Shown here: in pieces, positions 35,660-56,787 of the stretch
Layout of the letters: every line of letters begins with the position of its first letter
How positions within the stretch are numbered: position 1 is the first letter of the stretch
Origin: Micromonospora tarapacensis
Lineage (GTDB): Bacteria; Actinomycetota; Actinomycetes; Mycobacteriales; Micromonosporaceae
Reading direction: 5' to 3'
Assembly (NCBI RefSeq): GCF_019697375.1
Contig: NZ_JAHCDI010000003.1
Location: 930,001-994,000 of the forward strand
Length of the DNA: 64,000 nt
Translations under genes and position numbers: made by a program
Notes under the pieces: model-generated
The model's input: only the letters and a program-made list of their open reading frames with translations
Database searches by the model: none
What the model was told of the DNA's origin: nothing

Positions 35660-35820
35660 ATTCGCGCTCATGACGCTTGGCGGTGCCGGGCTCGTTGCTC
35701 GCCGGATCACCGATCCTGGCCGGCTCTCCATCAAACCCGGGGCTTGACACGATTCGGACCGTCGCTGGTTCTCCACAGGCGGGCGGGGTGGGTAGGGTGC
35801 GCATGGGTCGCCTCCATGGG

Positions 35821-35873
35821 GCGATCAAGGCCCCGGTCAAGCGCTCGCAACGCTGGCCGGGGCCGTTGATCGC
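35821..35873. repeat. Long near-perfect inverted repeat at the left element end
   Basis: Positions 35821-35836 (GCGATCAAGGCCCCGG) pair with 35857-35873 with a single bulged base, and the 20-base loop contains a smaller AGCG/CGCT pair. It marks the point where composition becomes element-like. Possible roles are part of the attachment site, a terminator insulating the element, or a transfer or replication signal. None is proven. Confidence 0.6.
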
Positions 35874-35989
35874 TGGACAAATCAGCAAACTGCAGTTGGC
35901 CTACGTAAGCAAGAGATTGCGCACGGCTACTAGGCCAAATATGCATCGCGAATCGGACGCCTCGTTTGGCGAGTGAGATCGTCTGCCAT

Positions 35990-36232
35990 GTGGCCAACCG
36001 ACTAGCGGACGTTGTGCGCGCGTTTCACATGGCGCAGGCCACCGCTGCTGCCTCTGCCCAGCGCGCAGCCGAGGATCGGGAGAAGGTCACCGAGGCCCGG
36101 GACAAGCTCGCCGACGCCATTGTGGAGGCGTCCCGAGACGGCATGCGCCAGATCGACATCGTGCGGGTAACCGGTTACACCCGCGAGCGGGTCCGCCAAG
36201 TCCTCCGCGCCCACGGCGTCACCCCGGATTAG
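35990..36232 (+). CDS. Small helix-turn-helix protein (sigma region 4-like)
   Basis: This protein has about 80 residues from the GTG at 35990; a TTG at 35966 is also possible. The first half is a charged helix or coiled coil (AQRAAEDREKVTEARDKLAD). The second half is a sigma-region-4-like HTH (ASRDGMRQIDIVRVTGYTRERVRQVLRAHG). Such small HTH proteins are frequent in actinomycete integrative elements and often regulate excision or transfer. It is the first gene inside the left end, and its target is unknown. Confidence 0.6.
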   Translation: MANRLADVVRAFHMAQATAAASAQRAAEDREKVTEARDKLADAIVEASRDGMRQIDIVRVTGYTRERVRQVLRAHGVTPD

Positions 36233-36411
36233 CCCCGCGCACGGCTGACCACGCCTGACGCGGTTGTACCCGGGTTGTACCTGGCCATATCGAAGATCAG
36301 CCCTGGTCAGCGTTTCCGCTGGTCATACGTGGTGCACCTGATCGGAGGTCTTTCGAACCCGGACTATGAAGCGCGGCGGCTACTGGACGCCGCACCATCG
36401 TGGGCCGCCAA

Positions 36412-38127
36412 CTAGGCTCCGGACTCCTCGGACTCATCGCCCGCAAGAGCGTCCATGGCGTCAAGGAGTGCATCGGCAGGCTCGGCCGGAAGGAAGCGGT
36501 CGCTGAGTGCATCCAGCAGGTCAATCGCGGAACGCAGCATTGAATCGAACGCGGCTTGGTGACCGTCCTCCTCGACCCGGAAGTGCCGGGCAGCCTTCTC
36601 GTATGTCGCGCCCTTGACATGGGCGGGCCCGCTGCGAAGCGCTTGCAGATTGCGCAGGAATTCCAGCCGCATGCCTGCGGGGTGAAAGCCCTCGGTCGCG
36701 AGGAACTTCTCAAACTTGGCGATCCCTTTGTCGCCATCGGCTACCTCAGTACGTTGCGCTAGCTCGGCTTCGTTGAGTCTCTCGATCAGAACCTTGGCAA
36801 GCGCCATAGTCTGGTTGTCAAAGTCGGCCTGATTCCCGTCGCTCGGTATGTGCAACGTCCCCAAATAATGTGCGTCGGCAGCCTTGAGAGGCTTATACAG
36901 ATTCCAATCGAAAGCTTCTGACCATCGCGTTCGGAACCGCTCATAGCGCAGCTTAAATAGCAGATCGGACGCCTCGGGGTTCAGCCATTGCCCTAGAATG
37001 CTGCGGCCGAAGTAGGTGTCGCTCATCTGGCCATCCGGCGGAATGTTGAAGCTGCGCCAGTACATCTGCTCCTTGTGCGGCATGTGCCCGAGGTCGCCGA
37101 GGAATACCGTTACATACTGCGCATGGTTGTTGTCGATCCGGACACTCCAGAGTCCGCCGCAAGTGATATGACTGTCTTCCACGGAGTAGCGGCGAGCATC
37201 GCCGTAGTACTTACCAAGAACATCTCGCTTGAAGAAGACAGGCGTCAAGAATTGAGGCGCGGAAGGGTTCTTGCCAAAGAAGTTAGCAAGCTTGTCTTCA
37301 TTGCAAGTAAAGAGGACTTCGTCGCCGTCCTCGTCGAGCCCGATAATGAAGTCTTCGTACTTCCGATTCGTCGTCCAGGGTGTAGCCCTGCGCCGTTTGG
37401 GCGTCCCACGGATGACCTTCTTGCCACGGAGACGACCGAAGCTCTTGTACGAGTTGGACATCCAATCTTCGCAAGAATCCACAAAGTAGCGATAGATGCA
37501 GTCGTCGGCTCGAGCGCTCTGCTCAATCCGTTCGATGCCGATTTCGGCCAGGCTCCTTGGCGAGTAGCGATCGAATTCGAAGAAGAGCAGCATGCACATG
37601 TCTCGCGCGGTCAGGTACTCCTTAACGTAACTGAGCCGCGCCTGCACGCGCTTGCCATCAATGCGCACGACCGGAATATCGTCGCCAGCCTCGTCTATGG
37701 CGATCAAGTTTCCCGCCTTCTTGTCCTCGTAGAGGTTGTGGAAGTGGCGAAACTCCTCGGATATCTCAAAGTATGAGTTGTGCATCCCGGCAAACTCGCG
37801 ACAGTAGACGAACGGCTCAACTGGCTCGTCACCTAGGCGGAGGTACCGATAGGTGTCATCGCCGTATTCTACAAAGGTGACGCCAGTTGAACCTATCCTG
37901 AGATCCCAGTCGAGCTCGGCCAAGGAAACCGAGAGGTGGTCAGGAGAGACGAGTGCACAGAACCGCGCGTTCTTCACGCCGGGGCTGTCGTCGATCTCGT
38001 ATAGAGTAATCCAGGTCTCCGTACCCATGCGCTCTTCGACGTACTCGCGAAGATCTACAAAGGTCAGATATGCCTCGTTGCTGAGCTTGATTTGCACGCT
38101 GTCACTCGCCTCATAAAATTGGAGCAT
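36412..38127 (-). CDS. Large cargo protein with C-terminal HEPN-type motif
   Basis: This 571-residue soluble protein has no close family that I recognise. Residues 1-400 form an alpha/beta region with scattered conserved-looking aromatic patches (FVYCREFAGMHNSYFEIS, MYWRSFNIPPDGQ). Residues 405-571 are helical and include FLRNLQALRSGPAHVKGATY, where Arg498 and His503 form the R-x4-H motif of HEPN ribonuclease domains, with the usual LRSGxAHxKG surroundings. A unique N-terminal region before a HEPN domain is the layout of ApeA-like and other abortive-infection proteins. I infer an RNase effector for phage defence. Codon use is AT-rich compared with the host. Confidence 0.6.
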   Translation of the reverse strand: MLQFYEASDSVQIKLSNEAYLTFVDLREYVEERMGTETWITLYEIDDSPGVKNARFCALVSPDHLSVSLAELDWDLRIGSTGVTFVEYGDDTYRYLRLGDEPVEPFVYCREFAGMHNSYFEISEEFRHFHNLYEDKKAGNLIAIDEAGDDIPVVRIDGKRVQARLSYVKEYLTARDMCMLLFFEFDRYSPRSLAEIGIERIEQSARADDCIYRYFVDSCEDWMSNSYKSFGRLRGKKVIRGTPKRRRATPWTTNRKYEDFIIGLDEDGDEVLFTCNEDKLANFFGKNPSAPQFLTPVFFKRDVLGKYYGDARRYSVEDSHITCGGLWSVRIDNNHAQYVTVFLGDLGHMPHKEQMYWRSFNIPPDGQMSDTYFGRSILGQWLNPEASDLLFKLRYERFRTRWSEAFDWNLYKPLKAADAHYLGTLHIPSDGNQADFDNQTMALAKVLIERLNEAELAQRTEVADGDKGIAKFEKFLATEGFHPAGMRLEFLRNLQALRSGPAHVKGATYEKAARHFRVEEDGHQAAFDSMLRSAIDLLDALSDRFLPAEPADALLDAMDALAGDESEESGA

Positions 38128-38136
38128 CCAAACTCA

Positions 38137-38352
38137 TTATCTCACGGGCAATGCCGCCCGCATAGTGATTAACCAGCCGATGCGCCCTGCCCAGTTCTGG
38201 ATTGGCTTTGAAGGGGACTTCTTCTGGGTAACGGGTCTTTGGCTAATAGATGTTCCGTCGTCACCCCACGCCAAGCCGACGGCTGCTACGAGCCCAATTG
38301 CGATGGCCGCAAGTGGTGAGATTCTAGGTCTTGTGTCGACCGGGAGTTTCAA
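38137..38352 (-). pseudogene. Truncated copy of the neighbouring membrane-anchored gene
   Basis: This 71-codon frame begins with KLPVDTRPRISPLAAIAIGL and VAAVGLAWG. That matches the membrane segment of the next gene upstream (KRKLPPLAAVAIGLIAVVGL, then VWG) almost position for position. After the helix the sequence turns into an unrelated basic tail and stops. It looks like a duplicated copy that lost its ectodomain, although expression of a short membrane peptide cannot be excluded. Confidence 0.55.
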
Positions 38353-38357
38353 GACGA

Positions 38358-38942
38358 CTATCTCTTAAATGCTGGCAAGTTTATCGTAATATCAACTGTT
38401 GTTCTGTCACTCGGTGGATTGTCGCGCTTGGTTACCGTGCAGAATTGGTCTCCCGCGCCGGTATAGGTCCTACTACCGTATTCGGTGACCAGAAGTACAA
38501 CACTTCCTTCAGCTAGGTCGGCATACGGGCTTCGCTGTCCGGTTCGGTCTGCGAGCAGCCGGTTGTCTTCGGCGTTGGCTCGGGACGAATCGTCGACAAG
38601 CGAGAATCCAACTTCCTTGGCGGCCGTCGAGACCAGATCGGACGCTGTTGCTCTATTGCCCGGCACTTCGTAGATCGCATGATAGTTCGGCGCGTCATTG
38701 TCTGACCCTCTGCCCGCGTCGCCCCGACTGCACATCTTCACGCCCCCCGCCTTCACCAGCGCCTCTTCCAACGGCTTCGCCACTTCCTCAGCGTAATTGG
38801 CTGTGGATTTAGTGTTGAGTGCGCCGTATAACGCAACAACACCCCATACCAGACCGACGACGGCTATAAGACCGATTGCGACAGCCGCCAGTGGTGGGAG
38901 CTTACGTTTCGGGGCAGATGATTTTGTGTTTGAGGTTTTCAA
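38358..38942 (-). CDS. Single-pass membrane protein with extracellular domain
   Basis: This protein has 194 residues from a TTG at 38942, preceded by AGGAA at good distance; a longer frame to 39224 has no support. A basic N-terminus is followed by one membrane helix (LPPLAAVAIGLIAVVGLVWG). An ectodomain of about 150 residues with two cysteines follows (GGVKMCSRGD, QFCTVTKRD). The topology suggests that the domain lies outside the cell. I do not recognise the family. A truncated duplicate lies directly downstream. Confidence 0.65.
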   Translation of the reverse strand: MKTSNTKSSAPKRKLPPLAAVAIGLIAVVGLVWGVVALYGALNTKSTANYAEEVAKPLEEALVKAGGVKMCSRGDAGRGSDNDAPNYHAIYEVPGNRATASDLVSTAAKEVGFSLVDDSSRANAEDNRLLADRTGQRSPYADLAEGSVVLLVTEYGSRTYTGAGDQFCTVTKRDNPPSDRTTVDITINLPAFKR

Positions 38943-39047
38943 GTGTGTATTCCTATTAAGTTGCCTTCCATTATATGGATAGCTCGCCACTATTGCAATG
39001 TGGCCAGAACTGACCCCTGCCGCCAGAGGCCGCGCATCGCGGCGCTC

Positions 39048-39076
39048 TTGCAATTGCAGGGAACTAATGTTATTCC
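39048..39076 (+). promoter_or_regulatory. Possible promoter of the cutinase-like gene
   Basis: TTGCAA (39048-39053) and TATTCC (39071-39076) are separated by 17 bases in an AT-richer gap, 84 bases upstream of the cutinase-like start. The match is modest. Confidence 0.3.
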
Positions 39077-39159
39077 TCAGTTCATGCCCTTCGATAAAGC
39101 GACCTGCGCTTGAGGGTAGAACATTCCCATCTCTCCAGTAAGAAAGCTGGTGATGCGCC

Positions 39160-40857
39160 GTGCGCGTAAACCGAAGATCCAGGTGGCAAGCAGCCGCGCT
39201 CAGCGCCGCAACGCTTGTCAGCACAAGCCTGCTGGCCGTCGTACCGGCAAGCCCGGCCTACGCTGACCCTGGCTGCCAGCAGGGCGGGGTGTATGTGCTC
39301 TGGGCGAGAGGCTCGGGCCAGACGCTTGGTGATGTCGAAGCGGCGCGGTTCAAGGAGCATGTCTACTACGCTCTTGGAACTGGCGGGGTTGGTCCGTATG
39401 ACTGGGCCGAACTCGGCAATCTGGACAACAACAGGGGTCAGGGCGAGCAGCCTGACGACCCGAACGAATTCCCCGCCGTCCCCGTCCCCTGGTCGCTCGT
39501 AACCGGCCAGTATTACGCCAGCGTCACCACTGGTACGAACGAGCTGATCGCTCACCTGAACGACCGGTACGCGGGCGACGGCCCCACTGGTGGTGGTAGC
39601 TGTTCCAACGAGACCCTCGTTATGGGCGGCTACTCGCAAGGTGCGCATGCAATTGGCGATGCCCTGGAACGAACTGGCTACGGCTCACTCAGCCAAGCCG
39701 CGAGGGACCACATCGGTTACGTCGCTCTTTACGGTGACCCCACGTCAAATCGGCTGTCGAGTCCGTGCCCGCTTTCAATGAGAGCGAACGCGCCCTGCGG
39801 CCAGGGAAACAATGCTGGCGCCCTGTACGGGCGGGGTGTTGTCTTTCCGGTTGCCTGGGCGGGGAGCTGGTGCGACCAATTCGACGGTGTTTGCAACCGG
39901 GCAAGCCAGTTCGGGTACAACGGGACTCTCGAAGGCAACCACACGTCAGCCTACCGCGACTGGTGGATCTGGCAGTCTGCGGCCGAAATCGCCCATGCCG
40001 CGCGTATCAAACGGTGCAGCTTCAACCCCTGCACTTCCAACCAGGTGTACATCACCAGCACCGCCGCCATCAACGGCAAAACAACTATCGGCTTCGGCAA
40101 CTGGACGGAGCAGGTCGGGCCGGGGAACGCAAACAAGATCGCGGCGGGCGGCTCCAACCAGCTCTTCATCCGGGGCGACGCAGCGGTGTTCGGCCGCAGC
40201 GGCATCGGCACTACCTGGATTCAGCAGGTGGGGCCGGGAAACGCAAACGCCATCGCCGTGAGTTCAACAGGCGTCGTGATGTTCATACGGGGCGACGCGG
40301 CGATCTTCGCCAAGCAAGGCGTTGGCAGCACCGTCTGGACGGAAGAAGTTGGCCCCGGTAACGCAGCCGCCATCGCAGTCGGCGGTAACACCCAGATGTT
40401 CATTCGGGGTGATGGGGCGATCTTTGCCAAGGACACCATCGGCGCAAACGGCTGGACTCAAGAAGTGGGTCCGGGGAACGCCACAAAGATCGCTGTCAGC
40501 TCGACCGGCGTACAAATGTTCATTCGTGGCGACGGCGCCGTCTTCGCCAAGCGCGGTATCGGCAATGGCGGTTGGGTTCAGGAAGTTGGACCCGGCAACG
40601 CCACAGCGATTGCTGTGGGCGGCGAGACCCAGATGTTCATCCGGGGTGATGGCGCTGTGTTCGCCAAAAACTGGATCGGTGACGGCGGCTGGGTGCAACA
40701 GACCAGTCCGGGCAACGCCCAGGCTATCGCCGTCTGCGACGACGGGACGCAGATGTTCCTACGCGGCGACGGAATGGTGTTCGCCAAGCGGGGGATTGCG
40801 GCCAACTGGACCGAGGAGACGAGCGCCGGTTCGGCCAACGCCATCGCTTGCGGGTAG
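39160..40857 (+). CDS. Secreted cutinase-family hydrolase fused to seven propeller-like repeats
   Basis: This is an exported protein of 565 residues. Residues 1-35 are a signal peptide (AALSAATLVSTSLLAVVPAS ending AYA). Residues 36-285 form a cutinase-type alpha/beta hydrolase: VYVLWARGSGQTLGDVEA, nucleophile Ser159 in GGYSQGAH, Asp in the Cys-bracketed CDQFDGVC, and His261 in GNHTSAY. Residues 293-565 are seven repeats of about 39 residues with the consensus QMFIRGDGAVFAKxxIG, then WxQEVGPGNAxxIAV, which suggests a seven-bladed propeller, possibly sugar-binding. Cutinases split cutin, polyester or triacylglycerol esters. The fusion would let the esterase dock on a surface. The GTG start has only a weak ribosome-binding site. 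Confidence 0.85.
   Translation: MRVNRRSRWQAAALSAATLVSTSLLAVVPASPAYADPGCQQGGVYVLWARGSGQTLGDVEAARFKEHVYYALGTGGVGPYDWAELGNLDNNRGQGEQPDDPNEFPAVPVPWSLVTGQYYASVTTGTNELIAHLNDRYAGDGPTGGGSCSNETLVMGGYSQGAHAIGDALERTGYGSLSQAARDHIGYVALYGDPTSNRLSSPCPLSMRANAPCGQGNNAGALYGRGVVFPVAWAGSWCDQFDGVCNRASQFGYNGTLEGNHTSAYRDWWIWQSAAEIAHAARIKRCSFNPCTSNQVYITSTAAINGKTTIGFGNWTEQVGPGNANKIAAGGSNQLFIRGDAAVFGRSGIGTTWIQQVGPGNANAIAVSSTGVVMFIRGDAAIFAKQGVGSTVWTEEVGPGNAAAIAVGGNTQMFIRGDGAIFAKDTIGANGWTQEVGPGNATKIAVSSTGVQMFIRGDGAVFAKRGIGNGGWVQEVGPGNATAIAVGGETQMFIRGDGAVFAKNWIGDGGWVQQTSPGNAQAIAVCDDGTQMFLRGDGMVFAKRGIAANWTEETSAGSANAIACG
40057..40857 (+). repeat. Seven approximately 117-bp tandem repeats within the cutinase-like gene
   Basis: The DNA encoding the seven propeller repeats is itself repetitive, with recurring blocks such as TGGGTTCAGGAAGTTGGACC-like and ATGTTCATTCGGGG-like stretches in register. 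Divergence between copies is moderate, so the array is not brand new. Confidence 0.7.
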
Positions 40858-41052
40858 ACCGCACGCACTCCACAGCGGTAACGCAGTAGTGAGCTAGGCC
40901 TGTCACTTCGGATGGGGAGGAATTCTGCTGAATGTAAGCAGCGCCCGCCGAGAGCGACATCTCGGCACCTACCTTGGGGCTTCATATATGTATGGAGGTT
41001 CGGGGCAGGTGCTAGGTTGGGTCGACTTCAGTTTCAGGCGATTGTCAGACCC

Positions 41053-41086
41053 GAAGGCGTCGACGTTAGGGTTAACGTCGCCTTCG
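41053..41086. terminator. Bidirectional hairpin between cutinase-like and XRE genes
   Basis: GAAGGCG...ACGTTA on the left pairs with TAACGT...CGCCTTC on the right with a small bulge. GCGTTTTGT follows on the plus strand, giving a terminator for convergent genes. Confidence 0.55.
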
Positions 41087-41127
41087 CGTTTTGTAGGGTG
41101 ACGTCGGCCCGCCACAGATTACCGCGT

Positions 41128-41970
41128 TCACCGCTCCTGCAGCTCGGCAATCGCCCGGCTGATTATCTCCCGCGCTGGCTTGCCCACGACGGCCGACGCC
41201 TGCAGGAGCGCGAACGCCCGTGAGTACACCGCGATCTCACGGGGCTGCGTGACCTCCAACCCGGCTGACATGGTCTCGATCTGCACCATCCGCTCGTCGA
41301 AGATCCAGAAGCTGCCCTGCGCCAGGCATTTCCGCTCGCCAGCGGCGGGGATGATCCCCAGGCTCACTCGCGGCAGCGACATCACGGCCAGTACACGGTC
41401 AAGCTGCCCGAGCATGACGTCTGTGCCGCCGACGCGGGTTCGTAGCGTCTGCTCCTCCAGGACGAACACAAACCGCCGGTCGCCGGTGTACAGCACCTTC
41501 TGGCGCTCCATGCGGGCGGCAACGGCTGCTTCGGTGTCGTTGGGCAGGTCGAGGAAGTCCGCCCAGAACTCGAAGATGGCAGCGGCATACTCGGCCGTGT
41601 GGAACAGGCCGGGTATGACGGTGTTCTCGTAGCCACGGAAGAGCTTGGTGCGCTCGTACATCGGGACGGACGAGACGTGCGTTTGCTTCAAACCCGCCCG
41701 AAGTTGGCGCTGCCACTCGATGTACATCGACTCGATGGCGCGCACCGTCGCCACGAGGTCGGGTATCTGGTCCTCCGCGCCGCAGGCTTGGCACCAGGCG
41801 CGCATGTCCGCCTCGCTCGGCGTCTGGGTGCCGTGTTCGAGCTTGCTGATCTTTGTGTAGTGCCAGCGGCAGTGGTCAGCGAGAGCCCGCCCCGTGAGAC
41901 CGGCATCTTTCCTGATCTCACGGAGGCGGACGCCCAGAGCTTCGCGCGCTTGCTTGACGGGGGCGGTCAA
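41128..41970 (-). CDS. XRE-family regulator with DUF5753 domain
   Basis: This 280-residue protein has an N-terminal XRE helix-turn-helix (LGVRLREIRKDAGLTGRALA, KISKLEHGTQTPSEADMR). The C-terminal DUF5753 domain reads MYERTKLFRGYENTVIPGL, TAEYAAAIFEFW, QLDRVLAVMSLPRVSLGIIP. These regulators are abundant in streptomycetes and relatives and are usually followed by a small partner protein; here the partner genes lie upstream. The start is a TTG one base after the stop of the DUF6879 gene, so the three minus-strand genes from 42880 to 41128 form an operon. Confidence 0.88.
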   Translation of the reverse strand: MTAPVKQAREALGVRLREIRKDAGLTGRALADHCRWHYTKISKLEHGTQTPSEADMRAWCQACGAEDQIPDLVATVRAIESMYIEWQRQLRAGLKQTHVSSVPMYERTKLFRGYENTVIPGLFHTAEYAAAIFEFWADFLDLPNDTEAAVAARMERQKVLYTGDRRFVFVLEEQTLRTRVGGTDVMLGQLDRVLAVMSLPRVSLGIIPAAGERKCLAQGSFWIFDERMVQIETMSAGLEVTQPREIAVYSRAFALLQASAVVGKPAREIISRAIAELQER

Positions 41971-41971
41971 C

Positions 41972-42502
41972 TTACGCGGGCTTGTACTCGTGATGCGGGG
42001 TGGCCAGTACCCAGGCGGCCTCGAACGCCGCCCAGCACGAGCGCACCACGTCGGGGTCGGTGGTCATCTCGTGGTCGAGCACCAGGCCGTCACCCGAGAA
42101 GTGCGTGAACGCCACCGTTTCCTGATCGAACATCCAGCAGTCATTGCCAGGCAGCAGGAGCGTTGACGCCTTGCGGCGCGGCAACCACCGCACGTCCTCA
42201 CCTGCCTTCACGAGGTTGAAGGCGTCCAGCCACTCGAACCGGATGTAGTCGGTGACCGGCTCCGACACGATCCGCAGACGCCGGAAGCTCTTACCTGCCG
42301 CCACGTTGGCCGCCATCAGGTCAAACCACGGCTGCCACCACACCGCCTCTTCCTCGGGGTCGAGCGGTTCGCCGCGTAGCCAGGTCTGGAACCGGCTCCG
42401 TTCGATGTCGGTCGAGTAGATGTCTCGCATTTCGAGGTGCAGCGCTTCCCGCTGGTATGACGTGAAGTAGCCGTCGCGCTGCTCTTCGGAAATCGGTTCC
42501 AC
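41972..42502 (-). CDS. DUF6879-family protein
   Basis: This 176-residue protein has the DUF6879 features: FTSYQREALHLEMRDIY near the start, FRRLRIVSEPVTDYIRFEWL, GEDVRWLPRRKAS and LLPGNDCWMFDQETVAFTHF. The family regularly occurs beside XRE-DUF5753 regulators and is thought to be their partner. Its GTG start directly abuts the stop of the upstream gene. The biochemical role is unknown. Confidence 0.82.
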   Translation of the reverse strand: MEPISEEQRDGYFTSYQREALHLEMRDIYSTDIERSRFQTWLRGEPLDPEEEAVWWQPWFDLMAANVAAGKSFRRLRIVSEPVTDYIRFEWLDAFNLVKAGEDVRWLPRRKASTLLLPGNDCWMFDQETVAFTHFSGDGLVLDHEMTTDPDVVRSCWAAFEAAWVLATPHHEYKPA

Positions 42503-42880
42503 CTACGCTCCAATGAGTAGTGCCTGCATGGCGGCCTTGGGTACCTCCACGCACGTCTCATAATCCGGGATGGTCATCTGGCCGAGCGCTTCGGTGTCGC
42601 CGACGCGCTCGCCCTGGATGATGTAGTTGCCGCTGTCGAGCACATGCACGATGGGCGGCACACGGTTGGTGACGTCGCCCTCCATGCCGTCGAGTGCCAA
42701 GAAGCCAAGCAGCCTGGCGGGTACTTCCACCACCGTCTCACTGTCGCTGACATCCAGCCGCGCCAGCACATCGGGGTCGGTGACGATCCACCCCTGCACG
42801 ATGTAACTGTCCTTGTCACTGGCGTACAGGGTCGGTGAGTTGCTGGGGGTGCTCTCCTTGCCGAGGAACCGTAGCCGCAC
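42503..42880 (-). CDS. Small protein with internal duplication, in the XRE/DUF6879 operon
   Basis: This 125-residue protein consists of two copies of one unit. The first runs YASDKDSYIVQGWIVTDPDV to SETVVEVPARLLG; the second runs VLDSGNYIIQGERVGDTEAL to YETCVEVPKAAM. Each unit looks like a small beta hairpin pair plus helix. It is the first gene of the operon with DUF6879 and XRE-DUF5753, with GGGAG before its GTG. I know no function; its place suggests a third component of the same regulatory module. Confidence 0.65.
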   Translation of the reverse strand: MRLRFLGKESTPSNSPTLYASDKDSYIVQGWIVTDPDVLARLDVSDSETVVEVPARLLGFLALDGMEGDVTNRVPPIVHVLDSGNYIIQGERVGDTEALGQMTIPDYETCVEVPKAAMQALLIGA

Positions 42881-43162
42881 GATCTTCTCCCTGTCGTCGG
42901 GCTTGCGAGAGGTTGCGCCGGACGTACCTACCCTTGATGCCGCCGAGCAACAATGTCAAGAGATGCGAGGCGGATTCATCGAGAGGGGACGTCGCCGGAT
43001 CTGCCTGGTGCGCGCGGAGTGTTGATCAAGAGCGCGGTGTGCCAAGCCCAAGCAACATGCGGCAACTTCGTTCCGGCCGCGTCAACTGTCGCTCTAGCGT
43101 CAGCCAACGTCTTGGCAACGCACACAGGTGTGGTGCGGCGAGTTCCAAGGATGGTGGCACAA

Positions 43163-43315
43163 ATGATCATCGTTTCGGTGGTGGCCGCCTTGGCGGTGGG
43201 CTTCTTGGCCGGGCTCCTCGCGTTCAAGGTGCGCACCAGGTGGTGCCCATCCTGCGGGGCGACCACCATCACGCTCGATGAGCGCCGACGACAGATCGAG
43301 CACACGGCGCGATGA
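43163..43315 (+). CDS. Small membrane protein with CPSC motif
   Basis: This protein has about 50 residues. One membrane helix (IIVSVVAALAVGFLAGLLAF) is followed by a short tail with WCPSCGATTITLDERRRQIE, in which a single CPSC pair could bind metal or form a disulphide. The ATG at 43163 has AAGGATGG about ten bases upstream. A longer frame back to 42953 reads as non-coding. It may head the tiny-gene operon that follows. Confidence 0.5.
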   Translation: MIIVSVVAALAVGFLAGLLAFKVRTRWCPSCGATTITLDERRRQIEHTAR

Positions 43316-43349
43316 GCCGGACGCTTAACCGTGACGCTCTGGACGCCTC

Positions 43350-47407: not shown

Positions 47408-47413
47408 GCCGGG

Positions 47414-48448: not shown

Positions 48449-48467
48449 TGCTTCGGGGCGGGATCGA

Positions 48468-48647: not shown

Positions 48648-48717
48648 CTCGCCGAAGACGGCCCGTGCTGTTTCAGTGTCAGTACTCAAATTCAGGAAAG
48701 GAGCTGTCGGTATCTCT

Positions 48718-49835: not shown

Positions 49836-50033
49836 GTGAATGAAAGCAAAAATGACAACAACGCGCCATTGCGCGTAACCGGAGAGGAGCGGAAACATCC
49901 CGCGATCCGCCAACTGGCGCGGGCTTGCATTGAGTTGGCGCGTCAGCGGATAGCACGCGGGTCGGACGCCAACGCTCCAGCAGCGGGCACGTCTGAAGGC
50001 GGCCCGGCAGAGACGGAGGCGCGGCGTGGCTGA
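49836..50033 (+). CDS. Small protein coupled to the coupling-ATPase gene
   Basis: This 65-residue soluble protein (RVTGEERKHPAIRQLARACI, ELARQRIARGSDANAPAAGT) has a helical first half and a disordered tail. AGGAGGAG lies before the GTG, and the gene overlaps the start of the ATPase gene by eight bases. It may be an accessory mobilization protein. No family is recognised. Confidence 0.55.
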   Translation: MNESKNDNNAPLRVTGEERKHPAIRQLARACIELARQRIARGSDANAPAAGTSEGGPAETEARRG

Positions 50034-52206
50034 CCTTCGCTGGTTCGACCTGAGCCTTCCCCGTGACATGGAGCTGACCAGTGTGGTCGCTGTGCTACGT
50101 CCGTTGGCGACTCGGCCGCGCGTCGGGCTAACGGCCACGACGCCGCTGGTCGTGCTTGAGGCATGGGGAACGGGCGGCCATGTCTGCTGGCGGCTTGGGC
50201 TGGACGGCCGCATCGCGCGCAGCCTGCCGGGTCAGATCATGGCGCATCTTCCCCGCCTCGGCGTTGAGCCGATGACAACGCCACGGCCCACCGTGACGGT
50301 CGCCGCCGACCTGCGCATGTACGGGATGACGAGGCCGCTGCGGACGGACACCGCCGACGCGGTGTCAGCGGGGCTGCTGGCCGCCCTCGGACAGCTCGGC
50401 GTGAACGAGGCCGGTGTCGTGCAGTGGCTCATCGGGCCAAGCCGCCAGCGGCAGTCCCCGCCTGCGAGCTTCGATCTGGGCGAAGCGCTCGGACTCCGCC
50501 AGGAGCGGCAGCCGGACGCCACGGCCACTCGGGAGTGGCGGGACAAGACGGCCGAGGCGCTGTTCGCCTGTCGCGGCCGGATCGGCGGAAGCGGAGCACC
50601 GGCCAGGGCGCTTGCCATCGTCCGCCGTCTGGCTGACGCGCTCAAAATCGCCAACACGCCGCACACCGGGCTGCGGCTCGGTGCCGCGACGAAGGGGCGC
50701 GCTGCGAAGCTCACCGCTCCCACGGTGCCGCTTACCTGGTCCTGCCTGCTGAACACCTCCGAGTTAGCCGCGCTTGTCGGCTGGCCGATCACCAAGGCTG
50801 TGGGCGACGAACTGCCCCTTGTCGGCGGGCACATCAACCCGGCGCCCAAATCGCTGCTGGTGGCCGAGGACGACGCGCCGGACGGAGAGCGGGTAATCGG
50901 CGAGAGCTTGCACGCCGGTCAACGCGGCCAGTTGGTGACCATGCCAGTCAAAACGAGTCTGCATCACGTCCAGGTCGTCGGTCCGACCGGCTCAGGCAAG
51001 TCAACGTTGTTGGCCTCAATGATCCTCGCGGACATCGCCGCTGGCCGCTCCACGCTGGTGGTCGAGCCGCGCGGCGACCTGATCAACGATGTTCTCGCCC
51101 GGCTGCCGAAAGACCGCCGAGACCGCGTGGTGGTCATCGACCCGGCCAGCAGCGAGCGCGTCGTAGGCGTGAACGTCCTGGCTGGTGAGCGCACCCATGC
51201 TGAGCGTCGTGCCGACGAGATAGTGCACCTGCTGAGCGAACTACACGGCGGCAACCTTGGCCCGCGCAGTACCGATGTGCTGATGCACGCGCTGGTCACC
51301 GCCGCGCGTCTGCCGGACGGGACATTGTGCGACGTGCCGGTGCTCCTGACCAGTCCGGCGTTTCGGCGTATGGCGCTCGCTGCGGTCAGTGACCCGATGG
51401 TGCTCGGGCCGTGGTGGGCGGGCTTCGAGGCGTTGTCGGAGCCAGAGCGTGGCAGGTACGTCGCCCCGCTGATGAACAAGCTGCGCCCAATCACCGGCCG
51501 GGATAGCTTGCGCCGGATGCTCGGCCAGGCCGCCCCGCGCTTCGACGTGGACGAACTGTTCACCACGCCGGGGACGGTGGTGTTGGCAAACCTCAACCGC
51601 GGCCTGCTAGGAACACCGACCGCGAACCTGTTGGGTGCCCTCGTGCTCAGCCAAGCATGGGCAGCGATCCAGCGCCGCGCCGCACTACCGCCAAGGAGGC
51701 GCCAAGCAGTATCCATCGTAGTCGATGAATTTCAGGATTTCCTGCGGCTGCCTGGCGGCGTGGACTTCGGCGACGCACTCGCACAGTCGCGCGGGTTGGG
51801 CGTTTCCTGGACGCTTGCGCATCAGCATCTCGACCAACTCAGCTCCAGCCAGCAAGCCGGGGTCGTGGCCAACGCGCGTTCCCGCGTCGTGTTTCGCCCG
51901 TCACCCGGCGACGCCAAACCGCTCGCTGCGGCGTTCGGCGGCGGGCTCGCCGGTAACGATCTGCTGAGGCTGCGCGCGTTCGAAGCGTGTGTGCAACTCC
52001 ACCTTGATAGCCAGCCATCCCGTCCGTTCTCCGTGCGCACCCGGCCCCTGCCGCCGTGGACAGGTGATCCGGCTGCTCTGCGCAAGGCCAGCGTTGATCG
52101 CTACGGCGTAGACGGAACCGAGCTGGACAAGGCCATGACCGAGCGATGGCACAACAACCAGAGTCCCGGCAGACCTGTCGGCGTGAAGAGGAGGGCGACG
52201 AAATGA
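50026..52206 (+). CDS. VirD4/TraG-like coupling ATPase (type IV secretion-type)
   Basis: This 726-residue cytoplasmic ATPase has an N-terminal third of element-specific sequence. A motor domain with Walker A GPTGSGKST (about 318-326), EPRGDLINDVLARLPKD, and Walker B VDEFQDF (about 565-571) follows, with SRGLGVSWTLAHQHLDQL after it. The hexameric ATPases of this type pump relaxosome DNA to a transfer channel. No membrane helices are seen, so it may be a soluble TcpA-like form that docks elsewhere. It overlaps the start of the replication-relaxation gene. It differs from the FtsK/TraB translocases of typical actinomycete elements. Confidence 0.85.
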   Translation: MADLRWFDLSLPRDMELTSVVAVLRPLATRPRVGLTATTPLVVLEAWGTGGHVCWRLGLDGRIARSLPGQIMAHLPRLGVEPMTTPRPTVTVAADLRMYGMTRPLRTDTADAVSAGLLAALGQLGVNEAGVVQWLIGPSRQRQSPPASFDLGEALGLRQERQPDATATREWRDKTAEALFACRGRIGGSGAPARALAIVRRLADALKIANTPHTGLRLGAATKGRAAKLTAPTVPLTWSCLLNTSELAALVGWPITKAVGDELPLVGGHINPAPKSLLVAEDDAPDGERVIGESLHAGQRGQLVTMPVKTSLHHVQVVGPTGSGKSTLLASMILADIAAGRSTLVVEPRGDLINDVLARLPKDRRDRVVVIDPASSERVVGVNVLAGERTHAERRADEIVHLLSELHGGNLGPRSTDVLMHALVTAARLPDGTLCDVPVLLTSPAFRRMALAAVSDPMVLGPWWAGFEALSEPERGRYVAPLMNKLRPITGRDSLRRMLGQAAPRFDVDELFTTPGTVVLANLNRGLLGTPTANLLGALVLSQAWAAIQRRAALPPRRRQAVSIVVDEFQDFLRLPGGVDFGDALAQSRGLGVSWTLAHQHLDQLSSSQQAGVVANARSRVVFRPSPGDAKPLAAAFGGGLAGNDLLRLRAFEACVQLHLDSQPSRPFSVRTRPLPPWTGDPAALRKASVDRYGVDGTELDKAMTERWHNNQSPGRPVGVKRRATK

Positions 52207-53123
52207 ACGCGAACACCCCTGCCGGTCGCCCTACCGATCCCGTCAACTCGTCATCACCCCTGACATGCGCAGATGGCTCGTTGCCCACAACGACTGTCGA
52301 GCCGTTACCGGCTCGACCCAGCGCCGACCGAACCCAGGCGCTACGTGACCGGCTCAGCGACCGTGACGTTGCCGTGCTCCGATCTTTGGCGACGCTGCGA
52401 TTGCTAACCGGCGGCCAGGCGCGACGACTGCACGTCGCCGATGGGTCAGCCGCAACCCAAAGCCGGAGGGCGCGCGCCCTCCTCCAACGTCTCGCGGACC
52501 TCAAGCTCGTCGTCCGTCTCGGCCGCCGCGTCGGTGGCGTGCGAGCCGGGAGTGCGGGCTACGTCTATGGCTTGTCTGGCCACGGGCAAGCGGTCCTGGC
52601 TGTCGAAGGTCCGATGGGTGGCCGACGCCGGCGCGTCTGGGAGACAAGCCCCAGTTTTCAAGATCACGTCCTTGGCGTGGCGGAGGTGTACGTGCGCCTG
52701 GTGGAGGCCGAGCGCACGGGAAGTCTGGAGATGCTCGACTTCCAGGCCGAACCTCCGGCGTGGCGGACGTTCCCCGGCGCGAATGGACCTGCCGTACTCA
52801 AGCCCGACGCCTTCGTGCGTCTCGGCGTGGACGACCTGGAGCACAGCGCGTTCCTGGAGATCGACCGGAGTACGGAGAGCGTACCGACCATCGTCCGCAA
52901 GTGCCGTACATACGTCGCCTACTGGCAAAGCGGCATCGAACAAGCCGAACACGAGGTATTCCCTCGCGTGCTGTGGCTGGCGGCCGACGCCCGTGGTGCT
53001 CAGCGCATCACCCAAGCGCTCACCCAGATGCCACGCGATGCCCAGCACCTGTTCCAGGTGACGTTCCTGGAGAGCGCTGTACCAGTCCTTACCGCCACGG
53101 CCAGGGGAGGCCGTATGGTGTGA
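52203..53123 (+). CDS. Replication-relaxation family protein (MobC/relaxosome-like)
   Basis: This 306-residue protein has an N-terminal winged-helix region (LRDRLSDRDVAVLRSLATLR, LLTGGQARRLHV, RRARALLQRLADLKLVVRLG). A restriction-endonuclease-like part follows (DAFVRLGVDDLEHSAFLEID, TIVRKCRTYVAYWQSG). This is the Replic_Relax (PF13814-type) arrangement found on actinomycete plasmids, linked to DNA relaxation at replication or transfer origins. The ATG at 52203 overlaps the ATPase stop (ATGA), so the two are made together. It is the best candidate for nicking or relaxosome formation in this element. Confidence 0.82.
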   Translation: MNANTPAGRPTDPVNSSSPLTCADGSLPTTTVEPLPARPSADRTQALRDRLSDRDVAVLRSLATLRLLTGGQARRLHVADGSAATQSRRARALLQRLADLKLVVRLGRRVGGVRAGSAGYVYGLSGHGQAVLAVEGPMGGRRRRVWETSPSFQDHVLGVAEVYVRLVEAERTGSLEMLDFQAEPPAWRTFPGANGPAVLKPDAFVRLGVDDLEHSAFLEIDRSTESVPTIVRKCRTYVAYWQSGIEQAEHEVFPRVLWLAADARGAQRITQALTQMPRDAQHLFQVTFLESAVPVLTATARGGRMV

Positions 53124-54145
53124 GCGCGCCCCCGAAGGCCCGGCTTCCCCTCGGGCAAATTCTTATCGGGGACGTGCGCACGCGGCTCGCGGAACTGCCC
53201 AGCGGCAGCATCGACACCGCGATCACCAGCCCGCCGTACTACCGCTTGCGCGACTACGGCCATCCAGGACAACTTGGCCTGGAGCCGGACGTTGACGGCT
53301 GGACGTCCAACCTGGTCGAGGTCTGCCGCCACGTGGCCCGAGTGCTCAAGCCGGGCGGGTCGCTGTGGCTGAACGTCGGCGACTCCTATTCCAGCCACGA
53401 CCGCCAGGGCGCACCGAAGAAGAGCTTGCTACTCGGGCCTCAGCGGTTGGCAGTCGCCCTGATGAAGGACGGCTGGTTGGTCCGTAACCAGGTGATTTGG
53501 GCGAAGACCAACCCAATGCCGTCCAGCGTGGCCGACCGGCTGAGCTGCACCTACGAAGTGATGTTCCTACTCGTCCGATCTCCGCAATACTACTTCGACC
53601 TGGACCTGATACGGCAGCCGCTCGTCACGTCCGCGAAGAAACGCCGCAACACGAACAGCTACCGCTACCTGCCCGACGAGGCCATGCCGCCGGACATCGG
53701 CTTCGACGACGACCGCGGCCTTAACCACCTCAAGGCTGAGGGGCGCGCCGGGCACCCCCTCGGCAAGAATCCCGGCGATGTCTGGCAGTTGCCAACGGCT
53801 GGCTACCGTGGCGCGCACTTCGCCACCTTCCCGCTCCGGCTGGCAGAACAACCCCTACTGGCCACCTGTCCCGAACGGGTCTGCGCCGCTTGTGGCGAGC
53901 CGTGGCGGCGGGAACCAGTCGACCGCGACAGGGAGAAGCCGCACCTCGGCCAACTGCGGCCGGGCTGCGATTGCCGGGCTGGCAGTACACCGGGCGTCGT
54001 GCTCGACCCGTTCATGGGCGCGGGAACGGTCGCCCTCGCCGCTGAGACGCACGGCCGGGAATGGATCGGCACCGAGCTGAACCCGACGTTCGCGGCGCTG
54101 GCACGACGTCGGCTTGCGGACTGGCGGGAGCGACAGCGCCGGTGA
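53120..54145 (+). CDS. Orphan DNA N4/N6 methyltransferase, beta class
   Basis: This 341-residue enzyme methylates an exocyclic amino group of cytosine (N4) or adenine (N6) in DNA. Motif IV TSPPYY (residues 36-41) precedes motif I DPFMGAGT (about 296-303), which is the order of the beta class. A Cys-rich insert (CPERVCAACGEPW with PGCDC) probably binds zinc. The GTG at 53120 overlaps the previous stop. No restriction endonuclease is beside it, so it is an orphan enzyme that may protect incoming element DNA or mark the transfer origin. Target sequence unknown. Confidence 0.9.
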   Translation: MSAPPKARLPLGQILIGDVRTRLAELPSGSIDTAITSPPYYRLRDYGHPGQLGLEPDVDGWTSNLVEVCRHVARVLKPGGSLWLNVGDSYSSHDRQGAPKKSLLLGPQRLAVALMKDGWLVRNQVIWAKTNPMPSSVADRLSCTYEVMFLLVRSPQYYFDLDLIRQPLVTSAKKRRNTNSYRYLPDEAMPPDIGFDDDRGLNHLKAEGRAGHPLGKNPGDVWQLPTAGYRGAHFATFPLRLAEQPLLATCPERVCAACGEPWRREPVDRDREKPHLGQLRPGCDCRAGSTPGVVLDPFMGAGTVALAAETHGREWIGTELNPTFAALARRRLADWRERQRR

Positions 54146-54240
54146 CGGCATCCACGGCACTCGTCGGTGCCATGCGGCTGTTCGTCGTCACCCCTGAGCG
54201 AGGGTGGCCAGCCGCACCACACCGAGGAGGGAAAGCCGTT

Positions 54241-54564
54241 ATGACGGAACCCGGAAATGGCAAGGCGGGCGTGAAGACGCTCGGCATCAAGTTGCCGGAC
54301 GAGCTGCATGCGCAGTTCGCCCTGGTGGCCCAGCTCGACGGACTCAGCCTGACCGATGCGATGCGCCGGGCGGTGGAGCTGTACGTCGAGACGAAGCAGA
54401 ACGAGCCGGACTTCGCGGCGCGGGCACAAGCCGCGCTCGAGGAGATCGAGCGCGAAGCTGCCAACCGACGCGGTGCGATCCAAGCGCTGTTTGGCGGGCA
54501 GACCGGCTCGGCAACAGAGGCGAAGGCTTCGAGCCGACGCCGCAGCGGTGACGCCAGCGCCTGA
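54241..54564 (+). CDS. Ribbon-helix-helix-like accessory protein
   Basis: This 107-residue protein opens with VKTLGIKLPDELHAQFALVA, QLDGLSLTDAMRRAVELYVE, a strand-helix-helix pattern that fits RHH/MobC-like DNA-binding proteins. A charged helical tail follows (AQAALEEIEREAANRRGAIQ). GAGGAGGG lies upstream of the ATG. It sits between the methyltransferase and the integrase and could be a relaxosome accessory factor, a repressor or a recombination directionality factor. None is proven. Confidence 0.7.
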   Translation: MTEPGNGKAGVKTLGIKLPDELHAQFALVAQLDGLSLTDAMRRAVELYVETKQNEPDFAARAQAALEEIEREAANRRGAIQALFGGQTGSATEAKASSRRRSGDASA

Positions 54565-54702
54565 GGCGCCAGGCTCGCCGCAACGGGACGGAGGGTAGGC
54601 ACACCGCCGCCCTCCGTCCCGCCAACCCCAAGCCGAACGCTGCAAATACCACAACCCAAAAGATGATCAATACCTGAGAAAATATAGGAGGATATGAATG
54701 TA

Positions 54703-56787
54703 ATGGAAAGATCAACATGGCTTCCGACGGGAACGCCCGGGACATACCCTGCGTCGTCCCAGGACGCGCGTGGGCGCGACGGGACGACGATTCCGGAGGA
54801 AGACATGCGCGACGCGCCGACGTACACCGATGCCGACCAGGGCACGGATCAAGACCTGGACGGGCGTGCGGCTACGACAGTTGAACGCGCCGCCCGGCAC
54901 GAGCGCAACCGCCCTGACCGCACGGGACTCATCGGCCAACTCAACGACCGCACCAGCGGCGTGGGCGGGATGGTCGACTATCTGCGCGGCAAGACCAGCG
55001 ACCGGAACGAGCAGCCCGCCGGACACATCCCGCGCGTCGTCATCTACCTGCGGGTGAGCACCGAAGAACAGGCCAAGATGGGCGGCGAAGCCGAGGGCTA
55101 CTCCATCCCTTACCAGCGCGAAGCCTGCTTGGGGAAGGTGCGCGTTCTAGGCGGCATCCTGGTGTGCGAGTACCTCGATGCCGGAGAGAGCGCGAAGTCC
55201 GCACACCGGCCGCAACTACAGGCGATGCTGCGGGAGCTGAAGGCCAAGCGCATCGACTACGTGCTCGTACACAAGATCGACAGGTTGGCGCGCAACCGCG
55301 CCGATGACGTCGAGATCAACGCCGCGATTGCCCGCTCGGGCGCCAAGCTCATCTCGGTCGCTGAGCCGGTTGACGAGACCCCTGCGGGCAAGCTGCTCTA
55401 CAACATGATGGCCGACGTCGCCCAATACCACTCCGACAACCTGGCGGCCGAAGTGCTCAAGGGCATGGACACCAAGGCCAAGCGCGGCGGCACACCCTAC
55501 CGGGCACCGCTCGGCTACCTCAACAAAAAGGAATTCATCGGCAACGCCCGCAACAGCTACGTCGTCGTGGACGACGAACGGGCTCCGCTCATCCGCTGGG
55601 CGTTCGAGCAGTACGCCCTTGGCGACTGGGCGATCCGGCAACTGGTCGATGCCCTGAACGCCCAAGGGTTGCGCAGCCGAGCCAGCCGCAAGCTGACAGC
55701 CAAGCCACTGACGATCTCGGGCGTGCATCACATGTTGCGCAACCCCTACTACATGGGTGTGGTGCCCTACCGAGGCGTCTACCACGAAGGGACGCACGAG
55801 CCGCTGGTGTCCGCCGAGCTGTGGCTACGGGTCCAAGACGTACTCACGGCGCATCACCTGGCGGGAGAGAAGGAGCGCAAGCACCCGCACTACCTGAAGG
55901 GCTCCATCTTCTGCGGCGAGTGCGGCGCGCGGCTCATCTACACGCGGAACAAGGGCAACGGTGGCGAGTACGAGTACTACACCTGCCTCTCGCGCCGGAC
56001 AGGGCGGCGGCCGTGTACCCGCAAGCCGATGCGACTGGAAAAGATCGAAGACAGCGTGGCCCGCTTCTACACCGCGTTCCGGCTGGGCCCGGAGCGAGCC
56101 GAACTGATCCGTAATGGCGTCCTGGACGAGCTGACCGCCGACCGCGAGAAGGCTGCCCGCGACACCGACCGCGCCAAGAAGCGCATTGCCCGGCTGCAAG
56201 GCGAGCGGCAGAAGCTGCTGACCGCCCACTACGCCGGAGCCGTGCCGCTGGACATGCTGAAGACCGAGATGGACCGGCTCACAGGCGAGATGGCCGACGC
56301 CGAGAACGCCGCCAAGGCTGCCACCCGAGCGGTTGCAGACCTGGAAGGCACGCTCAACGCGGCGCTCGTCATCGCCAAGGAGTGCGAACGGCAGTACGCC
56401 GATGCGCCGCCGCGCGAGCGAAGGATGATCAACCAAGGGCTGTTCAAAGCGCTGTACCTCTCTCCAGACGGAGAGGTAGAGCGCTTCGAAATGACCGAGC
56501 CGTTTGCCACACTGCTCGACCGCAACCTTCTGGCCGACCTCGCCAAGGAGCGGGCGGGGCGGCGGCCCGCCTTCGTCCTGGCTGACGTGCCGGAAGCCGT
56601 ACACGAAGAAGCCGAGGGCCGCTCACGGCCCTCGGCTGTCTTCATCAATAGTTTCGTATGTCCGTCGAAAACGGACAAGCCGGACGGCGGTGCCGTCCGG
56701 CTTGGTTTGCACATGATCACTCTGGTGCGCCCGGCAGGATTCGAACCTGCGGCCTTGGGATTAGAAGTCCCCTGCTCTATCCGCTGA
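54703..56787 (+). CDS. Large serine integrase whose frame runs into the host tRNA gene
   Basis: This site-specific recombinase inserts and excises the element. After an unusual N-terminal extension of about 110 residues come the resolvase domain (VVIYLRVSTEEQAKM, catalytic Ser122 when numbered from 54694; YVLVHKIDRLARN), the recombinase domain (AKRGGTPYRAPLGYLNKKE) and a zinc ribbon (FCGECGARLI with a later C pair, about 407-442). A coiled coil (DREKAARDTDRAKKRIARLQ) follows. The ATG at 54703 suits the AGGAGG better than one three codons earlier. A perfect hairpin (56611-56636) lies inside the frame. The last 40-50 residues, past about 56640, read through the junction and stop only within antisense tRNA-Arg. 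Confidence 0.88.
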   Translation: MERSTWLPTGTPGTYPASSQDARGRDGTTIPEEDMRDAPTYTDADQGTDQDLDGRAATTVERAARHERNRPDRTGLIGQLNDRTSGVGGMVDYLRGKTSDRNEQPAGHIPRVVIYLRVSTEEQAKMGGEAEGYSIPYQREACLGKVRVLGGILVCEYLDAGESAKSAHRPQLQAMLRELKAKRIDYVLVHKIDRLARNRADDVEINAAIARSGAKLISVAEPVDETPAGKLLYNMMADVAQYHSDNLAAEVLKGMDTKAKRGGTPYRAPLGYLNKKEFIGNARNSYVVVDDERAPLIRWAFEQYALGDWAIRQLVDALNAQGLRSRASRKLTAKPLTISGVHHMLRNPYYMGVVPYRGVYHEGTHEPLVSAELWLRVQDVLTAHHLAGEKERKHPHYLKGSIFCGECGARLIYTRNKGNGGEYEYYTCLSRRTGRRPCTRKPMRLEKIEDSVARFYTAFRLGPERAELIRNGVLDELTADREKAARDTDRAKKRIARLQGERQKLLTAHYAGAVPLDMLKTEMDRLTGEMADAENAAKAATRAVADLEGTLNAALVIAKECERQYADAPPRERRMINQGLFKALYLSPDGEVERFEMTEPFATLLDRNLLADLAKERAGRRPAFVLADVPEAVHEEAEGRSRPSAVFINSFVCPSKTDKPDGGAVRLGLHMITLVRPAGFEPAALGLEVPCSIR
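56611..56636 (+). terminator. Hairpin near the 3' end of the integrase frame
   Basis: A perfect 10-bp stem (GCCGAGGGCC and its complement) with a 6-base loop lies within the open frame of the integrase. It looks like the element's own terminator, which implies that the natural end of the integrase lies close by. Confidence 0.6.
56659..56703 (-). terminator. tRNA-Arg terminator and adjacent hairpin at the right junction
   Basis: AAGCCGGACGGC (56677-56688) pairs perfectly with 56692-56703 across a 3-base loop just downstream of tRNA-Arg on the minus strand, a typical tRNA terminator. Beside it, TGTCCGT/ACGGACA (56659-56677, 5-base loop) forms a second palindrome. The right attachment core probably lies in or beside it. 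Confidence 0.6.

Follow-up and report, generated by a model that had tools for sequence, protein, structure and literature searches.

Location and ends of the element

The DNA analysed is a 64,000-nt stretch (the window) of contig NZ_JAHCDI010000003.1 of Micromonospora tarapacensis, whose assembly comprises 6.9 Mb in 4 contigs. To judge by its ends and its relatives, the window carries a real integrative element of approximately 20.4 kb, which reaches from a TGGTGC sequence (36331-36336) to the 3′ end of a tRNA-Arg(tct) gene. The element encodes a large serine integrase whose reading frame runs across the attachment site (att) into the tRNA gene, and its opposite end encodes, in frame, a putative alternative C-terminal tail of this enzyme.

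The TGGTGC sequence at 36331..36336 (forward strand) constitutes the core of attL. The same letters form the core of attR (56723..56728, forward strand), located at the CCA end of the tRNA gene (56723..56798, reverse strand), which is the integration target and contains a TTCGAACC box at 56740-56747. Assuming crossover at the putative central dinucleotide GC (36334-36335 in attL), the integrated element extends from 36334 to 56726 (20393 bp). The G+C content is 0.52-0.70 within the block and mostly 0.70-0.77 in the flanks.

The genomes of 160 members of the genus were searched with a query that joined the tRNA gene to its right flank, and all of them (160/160) gave a match. Among the matches listed, at least 24 (counted manually) begin at query positions 124-128, i.e. 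at the 3′ end of the tRNA gene. In three genomes (L057, L058 and L065) the gene of the left flank (window 34901-34928, ending near 34926) is separated from the tRNA gene by only 369-731 bp, and the element is therefore absent; a preliminary description of the locus had proposed comparison with strains of this kind, with an empty tRNA-Arg site. The integrase was detected (E<=1e-100) in only 4 of the 160 genomes, that of the window included, as against 160/160 for the tRNA gene and right flank. The element is thus sporadic and not fixed in its relatives.

The left junction was located with the aid of genome G304 (L069), in which a 65-bp match to window positions 36237-36301 (75% identity, E 3e-6) stops approximately 28 bp before the tRNA gene, which places the junction in the window near 36331; the arrangement in L071 was judged by eye to be similar. 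Positions 34927-36330 lie outside the element. The att cores, the empty sites and the domains of the integrase, the coupling ATPase and the Replic_Relax protein confirm the preliminary description in regarding the block as an integrative element with mobility genes of its own. The left end that it placed at 35660 was not borne out, and was rejected in favour of 36331-36336 on the basis of the element-free relatives and the TGGTGC core. A direct-repeat search gave no pair linking both ends of the element among the 20 largest of 56 repeat families.

The integrase gene crosses the attachment site

The integrase gene (54694..56787, forward strand) encodes a protein with Resolvase (105.7 bits), Recombinase (58.0 bits) and zinc ribbon (42.9 bits) domains, all above their cut-offs. 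The codon of V678 contains the GT of the att core, and the later residues are encoded by the antisense strand of the tRNA gene.

This arrangement was examined in 83 loci. One scan yielded 173 candidates, of which 80 were retained as named loci; 5 duplicates were removed from these, and the window and 7 further loci were added (G148 and G345 were left out). Association with tRNA genes recurs among the named loci. An opposite-strand tRNA gene was found 1300-2400 bp past the start of the match in 59 of the 83 loci. A GGT core is present in 55 of these 59, it is in the integrase frame in 52 of the 55, and the frame is open across it in 51. The 51 crossing loci represent 18 kinds of tRNA and 9 isotypes, and the residues encoded past the core correspond to tRNA antisense (GFEP and similar).

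The 30 listed PF07508 loci that were taken as a base-rate control did not provide a clean set of negatives. A tRNA gene is present at the end of the open reading frame (ORF) in 9 of the 30, one of which is the window itself. Six of these genes encode tRNA-Leu(gag): five overlap the ORF, and that of L248 begins 18 bases after it. Three further loci (L239, L244 and L246) bear the antisense signature with no tRNA call. The five overlapping ORFs (L236, L237, L238, L240 and L245) belong to a different clade of serine integrases, which ends inside tRNA-Leu(gag) with an overlap of 19 nt in four cases and 57 nt in one. This clade is perhaps kin to the Mycobacterium actinomycete integrative and conjugative elements (AICEs) of tRNA-Leu (Ghinet 2011, PMC3218068).

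Two perfect inverted repeats were noted in the late part of the integrase frame of the window (56611-56636 and 56677-56703), the second of which immediately precedes the P arm of the attachment site. Similar stems precede the P arm in several relatives, as judged by eye.

A stranded tail at the opposite end

The left end of the element contains, in frame with the core, a coding sequence without a start codon (36332..36415, forward strand), which specifies the 27-residue peptide VHLIGGLSNPDYEARRLLDAAPSWAAN followed by a stop codon. The same tail peptide is encoded at the left ends of the elements of G346, G345, G049, G148 and G019, with nucleotide changes mostly at the third codon position. These relatives sit at different tRNA genes where the right end is known; the right end of G345 enters no recognised tRNA gene.

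A tail is encoded at 16 left ends in total. It comprises 22-33 residues in the nearer relatives of the window, and approximately 144-157 residues in five Streptomyces loci (L134, L135, L138, L150 and L156; left ends obtained by locus-to-locus comparison), Labedaea (L127), Rhodococcus rhodnii (L129) and Amycolatopsis (L130). Each of the four long tails that were scanned contains two helix-turn-helix (HTH) stretches. Nucleotide differences at the first, second and third codon positions number 62, 65 and 150, respectively, in the group of the window, and 386, 359 and 738 in Streptomyces. The ratio of nonsynonymous to synonymous differences (pN/pS), summed over related pairs, is 0.40-0.44 for the tails of these two groups and 0.59 for L127/L129/L130 (the tails of G183 and G068 were excluded from the sets). 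The third-position bias extends past tail codon 10; in the two groups analysed for it, the DNA past the tail stop codon is free of codon-phase bias. When each of the 16 tails was held out and compared with a profile of the rest, it scored 19.4-46.1 bits, and the best reverse-strand control scored 13.5 bits. Searching the remaining loci given with the short-tail profile revealed no additional left ends.

Two left-end tails, approximately 1 kb apart, were observed both in G183 (oriented positions 243 and 1256) and in G068 (17218 and 18231). The inner one fits a window-type integrase and looks vestigial, which suggests that the integrase and the ends were replaced as a unit.

Architecture of the attachment sites

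Within the element, a TpsiC-like motif GGTTTGCA (P arm; 56704..56711, forward strand) is located 14-21 bases before the GT of the core at the right end, and TTCGAACC (P′ arm; 36352..36359, forward strand) at +19 to +26 from the GT at the left end. In the 51 crossing loci the element end before the core carries GGTT(T/C)GAA at -21 to -14, the commonest base at each position having a frequency of 0.59-0.98, and the tRNA sequence after the core carries TTCGAACC or near variants at +14 to +21. The same type of motif is found at +19 to +26 of the left ends, with CTT at 17-19 and CC at 26-27 in 16 of 16. The P′ motif is therefore 5 bp further out than that of the tRNA (exact centre by hand count); an offset of 5 bp in the zinc-ribbon motif also distinguishes attP from attB of serine integrases (LI/A118; PMC3783163).

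The two bases following the GT are equal in attL and attR in all 13 elements in which both ends were read (8 GC, 3 GG, 1 AC and 1 CG). The probability that random pairing of the 13 would match throughout is approximately 4e-5, by a hand count that ignores kinship. In the 51 loci the dinucleotide follows the tRNA: it is GC in 13/13 Arg, GG in 10/10 Val and CG in 10/10 Pro loci. A tree of the 51 integrases requires at least 24 changes of isotype, as against a shuffled mean of 33.0, and 17 changes of the core, as against a mean of 26.6 and a minimum of 22 in 200 shuffles. Sister integrases residing in different tRNA genes often share the core (L155 Val/L159 Ala, L133/L136, L190 Lys/L200 Val); it is not kept in the sister pairs L162/L167 and L127/L129, nor in the near pair L154/L158.

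The CCA end and the T-loop of a tRNA lie at a fixed mutual distance. Given the boxes at fixed positions and the match of the core, the serine integrase therefore apparently reads the CCA-to-TpsiC layout that tRNAs have in common.

Unsplit integrases

In two loci, L169 (Nesterenkonia ebinurensis) and L142 (Kibdelosporangium aridum), the tail domain is fused to the integrase in a single frame. Of 7993 candidates scored in a protein search with L169, 4409 passed at E<=1e-30, and 120 of these were listed. Among the 120, 96 align no further than residue 520-549, the core valine being residue 528, and 90 of the 96 bear the antisense-tRNA signature; 11 reach past residue 600, six of them to at least residue 675, and 13 end earlier. 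Integrases 90-95% identical to that of L169 (P0002, P0007 and P0008) have differing tRNA-antisense-like tails, as seen at the protein level.

The structure model of the L169 integrase (mean predicted local distance difference test score, pLDDT, 77; predicted template modelling score 0.34) has an ordered serine-integrase body, a low-confidence linker (residues 511-578) that contains the core, and then two three-helix sets (584-620 and 632-668), into the second of which the Pfam HTH matches fall. A Foldseek search with the body matched solved serine integrases, including those of Listeria, Bxb1 and PhiC31. Comparison of L169 with plasmid and phage records gave no match at E 1e-40, and a viral-contig scan with it gave 3 loci.

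At L142/L229 (G765:C34, ~202700-206400) the unsplit integrase is followed directly by a second serine integrase, approximately 33% identical to that of L169, and then by tRNA-Ala(cgc); L142 had been suspected of being a tandem array. In L226 (G766:C50, ~109060-109560) a fragment with 96% identity to the integrase of L169 across 73 residues breaks off at the att valine. It continues into DNA without a recognised tRNA gene and with CTCAAACC at a tRNA-like distance, a possible secondary site.

Transfer module and other genes

Upstream of the integrase gene lies a compact block of forward-strand ORFs encoding (i) a DUF2637 (Spd-like) protein (48891..49535; 27.8 bits, cut-off 22.8), (ii) a small protein of 65 aa, present in relatives (49836..50033), (iii) a VirD4/TraG-like coupling ATPase (50026..52206; PF10412 29.8 bits, cut-off 20.5; PF02534 23.2 bits, cut-off 20.1), (iv) a Replic_Relax (PF13814) protein, a candidate MobC-type relaxase (52146..53123; 152 bits, cut-off 25.3), (v) an N6/N4 DNA methyltransferase (53120..54145; candidate start codon GTG), for which no restriction partner was recognised, and (vi) a ribbon-helix-helix (RHH)/CopG-like protein, a candidate accessory factor (54061..54564). 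The domain scores agree with the gene list of the preliminary description for the serine integrase, the ATPase, the Replic_Relax protein, the methyltransferase and the Spd-like protein. The RHH assignment stands in part: the protein is conserved in relatives but scores 17.1 bits, below the cut-off of 20.5.

The Walker A motif of the ATPase is located at residue 319, and the sole hydropathy window above 1.6 begins just behind it, at residue 328. A match to FtsK (20.0 bits) remained under the cut-off of 24. Of the AICE replication proteins RepSA, RepAM and Prim-Pol, the latter two were tested and were unmatched among the 20 ORFs scanned; the claim that the AICE gene set is absent thus holds for the parts tested. 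The same 20 ORFs showed no component of a type IV secretion system besides the ATPase, so that the pore of a helper would be needed for transfer.

The PF13814 score supports the Replic_Relax protein as the candidate relaxase; its conserved residues include D202, E219 and K233, numbered from a start at 52203. The same family is termed a MobC relaxase in described streptococcal integrative and mobilizable elements (IMEs; PMC5357655, PMC12479173), and the earlier statement that no classical relaxase is visible is therefore doubtful. The structure model of the protein, which was examined for a PD-(D/E)XK nuclease fold, has a mean pLDDT of 53.5; many of its top matches in the PDB are restriction-type nucleases, all weak (best E 0.008, none reaching 0.001), and a PDB sequence search with the PF13814 alignment gave 0 matches up to E 1. 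The genome of the window (G000) contains six PF13814 matches above the cut-off, that of the window included. A second element of the same kind is located in G000:C4 (~4032737-4034600; L048, L231); its integrase ends in a tRNA-antisense-like peptide, and no complete tRNA gene was found at that locus.

A search with the ATPase (E<=0.001) in 300 genomes of the family found matches in 163, six of them close (57-72% identity) and the other listed matches 32-40% identical. The order ATPase, Replic_Relax protein, methyltransferase, RHH protein and integrase, proposed earlier as a query across actinobacterial genomes, recurs in eight genomes. In seven of them the integrase is at a tRNA gene: Arg tct in G346, Val gac in G183 and G068, Glu ctc in G049 and G154, and Arg ccg in G019 and G042. 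In the eighth (G148) the contig ends within the integrase gene.

Apart from patches, the relatives differ in the cargo that separates the left end from the module. In the window (36412..48894) it includes ORFs for a cutinase-like protein (39160-40857), an HTH/DUF5753 protein (41128-41970), a DUF6879 protein (41972-42502), a 608-aa protein (44498-46324) and a YkwD-like protein (47493-48017). The cutinase-like protein contains, on its C-terminal side, six tandem repeats of approximately 39 residues each. The HTH/DUF5753 and DUF6879 genes occur together with that of a 125-aa protein (window 41128-42880) in G346, G183, G057, G103 and the second element of the genome, and as a pair also in L128 and L130.

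Proposed mechanism and alternatives

We conclude that the window very probably harbours a mobilizable element that integrates at a tRNA gene by means of a large serine integrase, with attP located within the coding sequence of this enzyme and the tail being exchanged on integration. This reading is supported at the level of sequence by the ends, the frames, the motif positions, the core match, the stranded tails and the unsplit relatives.

In the excised circle the integrase gene would be continuous and would encode the full-length protein with its C-terminal tail (27 residues here). This protein would join attP to the CCA end of the tRNA gene, which would stay intact. Its zinc ribbon would read the box GGTTCGAA/TTCGAACC, present with near variants in both attP arms and the TpsiC arm of the tRNA, and the 2-bp core beside CCA would match between attP and the tRNA. 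Integration would strand the tail at the far end, and the integrase would gain a tail coded by the tRNA antisense strand; this change may alter its activity, direction or stability. The RHH protein may help excision, while the PF13814 protein may nick the DNA and the ATPase couple it to the pore of a helper.

In a bolder form, which we put forward tentatively, the enzyme may be a pan-tRNA integrase: its zinc ribbon would recognise the TpsiC box at a constant distance from CCA, any CCA-encoding tRNA gene with a matching core could serve as attB, and the detachable HTH part could be a directionality switch present only in the circle and lost on integration. In the loci examined the box lies at +14 to +21, and the anatomy of tRNA would then explain the choice of target. 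Should the tail control direction, the system would be a natural and directly testable model of an integration that locks itself, and might serve as a tool whose landing sites can be predicted. Many integrases of this clade would, moreover, be annotated without their original C-terminus, which sits kilobases away and lacks a start codon.

Several observations weigh against this main reading. The evidence is that of DNA and protein sequences, from which we infer the circle and the full-length protein. Read-through into tRNA antisense can by itself be due to chance in GC-rich DNA. ARAGORN found no tRNA gene in range in 24 of the 83 loci, and 4 more lack the GGT core; the core is out of frame in 3 of 55 (L146, L166 and L172), L201 has it in frame with an early stop, and in L195 it is placed 5 bases inside the tRNA gene. 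Among the unsplit proteins, L142 has Ala-Gly at the position of the core valine. The strict motif is present in 27/51 P arms, 20/51 tRNA arms and 8/16 P′ arms, at fixed positions (one further strict tRNA-arm motif occurs outside +14 to +21). Eight of the 13 matched cores are GC, and the elements are related. The left ends were found via similarity of the tails, so that the search itself accounts in part for their being in frame with the valine; this does not apply to the core match. Extra upstream DNA was available for 15 named loci, and a left end was obtained in 8 of them but not in the other 7 (L126, L128, L137, L139, L143, L144 and L145); none was found in G154 or G042 either. In the hold-out comparison the best other forward-strand match, which was not itemised, scored 31-35 bits; we take it to be the second tail of G183.

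Among the alternatives, the left-end tails could be remnants of an integrase that works unsplit in some lineages, the split state having no regulatory meaning. The shortness of the tail in the nearer relatives of the window (22-33 residues) and the second, apparently vestigial tail retained inside the elements of G183 and G068 agree with this view; we consider it unlikely, as pN/pS is approximately 0.4 in the two best-populated tail groups and the frame is conserved across hosts.

An equally improbable alternative concerns transfer: instead of using the pore of a helper, the module could be self-transmissible, e.g. in the form of double-stranded DNA. The DUF2637 Spd-like protein would fit such a module, as would the hydropathy profile of the ATPase, in which no N-terminal membrane helix is clearly visible. 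The VirD4-like character of the ATPase, its subthreshold FtsK match and the lack of RepAM and Prim-Pol matches among the 20 ORFs scanned speak against it.

It is very unlikely that the integrase functionally ends before att, the read-through and the similarity of the left ends reflecting conservation of an attP arm at the DNA level. The first ~27 bases of the left ends do behave as such an arm, with their invariant CTT and CC, but the third-position bias continues beyond codon 10, tails of ~144-157 residues contain HTH domains, and unsplit proteins exist.

Least probable is an ordinary Class_IME_8-type mobilizable element whose single-site serine integrase happens to adjoin tRNA-Arg: the coupling protein, relaxase family and integrase class are those of this type (Coluzzi 2017, PMC5357655), but one clade occupies 9 tRNA isotypes, with the changes on the tree noted above and with close sisters at different tRNAs (L155/L159 and L190/L200).

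Comparison with known systems

Class_IME_8, comprising 2 streptococcal IMEs, combines a VirD4 coupling protein, a Rel_PF13814/MobC relaxase and a serine integrase in compact order (Coluzzi 2017, PMC5357655), and in Streptococcus suis (2025) PF13814 IMEs with VirD4 number 71, an orphan N6-adenine methylase being present in two distantly related IMEs (PMC12479173). The element of the window shares the three components of Class_IME_8 and their order, but differs in its actinomycete host, its tRNA target and the methyltransferase and RHH genes between the relaxase and the integrase; two streptococcal IMEs of family Ser_2 are listed without a determined site (PMC5357655). As a kind of mobile element it is close to Class_IME_8 and not wholly undescribed. 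The suggestion of an undescribed family accordingly does not extend to the transfer module; the integrase crossing its own att, which the preliminary description had not seen, is the unusual part.

Attachment sites inside integrase genes have precedents. In streptococcal integrative and conjugative elements (ICEs) integrated in rumA, attR lies within the serine integrase gene and the C-terminus changes on integration (Ambroset 2016, PMC4701971); the swap shifts the frame of both proteins, and their altered function is inferred by those authors. These ICEs resemble the element of the window in having att inside a serine integrase gene, target rumA instead of a tRNA gene, and are described in the excerpts of PMC4701971 with no mention of an HTH domain. 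Myxococcus phage Mx8 has attP within int, and integration replaces a C-terminus of 112 residues with one of 13, leaving the enzyme less active (PMC4701971, PMC4383910). Its self-splitting layout is the same, but its int encodes a tyrosine recombinase; Mx8 is thus the experimental precedent for a changed, less active enzyme, and the rumA ICEs are the precedent for a serine integrase.

According to one study (Islander 2014, PMC4383910), no serine integrase was known to have a tRNA gene as its target, and the Mycobacterium AICEs with serine recombinases in tRNA-Leu and phage phiRSM1 in tRNA-Ser were called rare (Ghinet 2011, PMC3218068). The latter elements also use a serine recombinase at a tRNA gene, but one tRNA each, and tail exchange is not mentioned in the excerpts of that paper. 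A clade present at 9 tRNA isotypes contrasts with this view of tRNA-targeting serine integrases as absent or rare. The 5-bp shift between the attP and attB motifs is shared with the LI/A118 integrase, whose motif TTTAGTATC differs from the tRNA box (Rutherford 2013, PMC3783163). A tRNA-general self-splitting integrase that removes a domain was not found in the open-licence literature searched. By its sequence features, the integrase system appears to be a variation on the known self-splitting integrases, which is of the serine type, is general for tRNA genes and has, in several lineages, a removable DNA-binding part.

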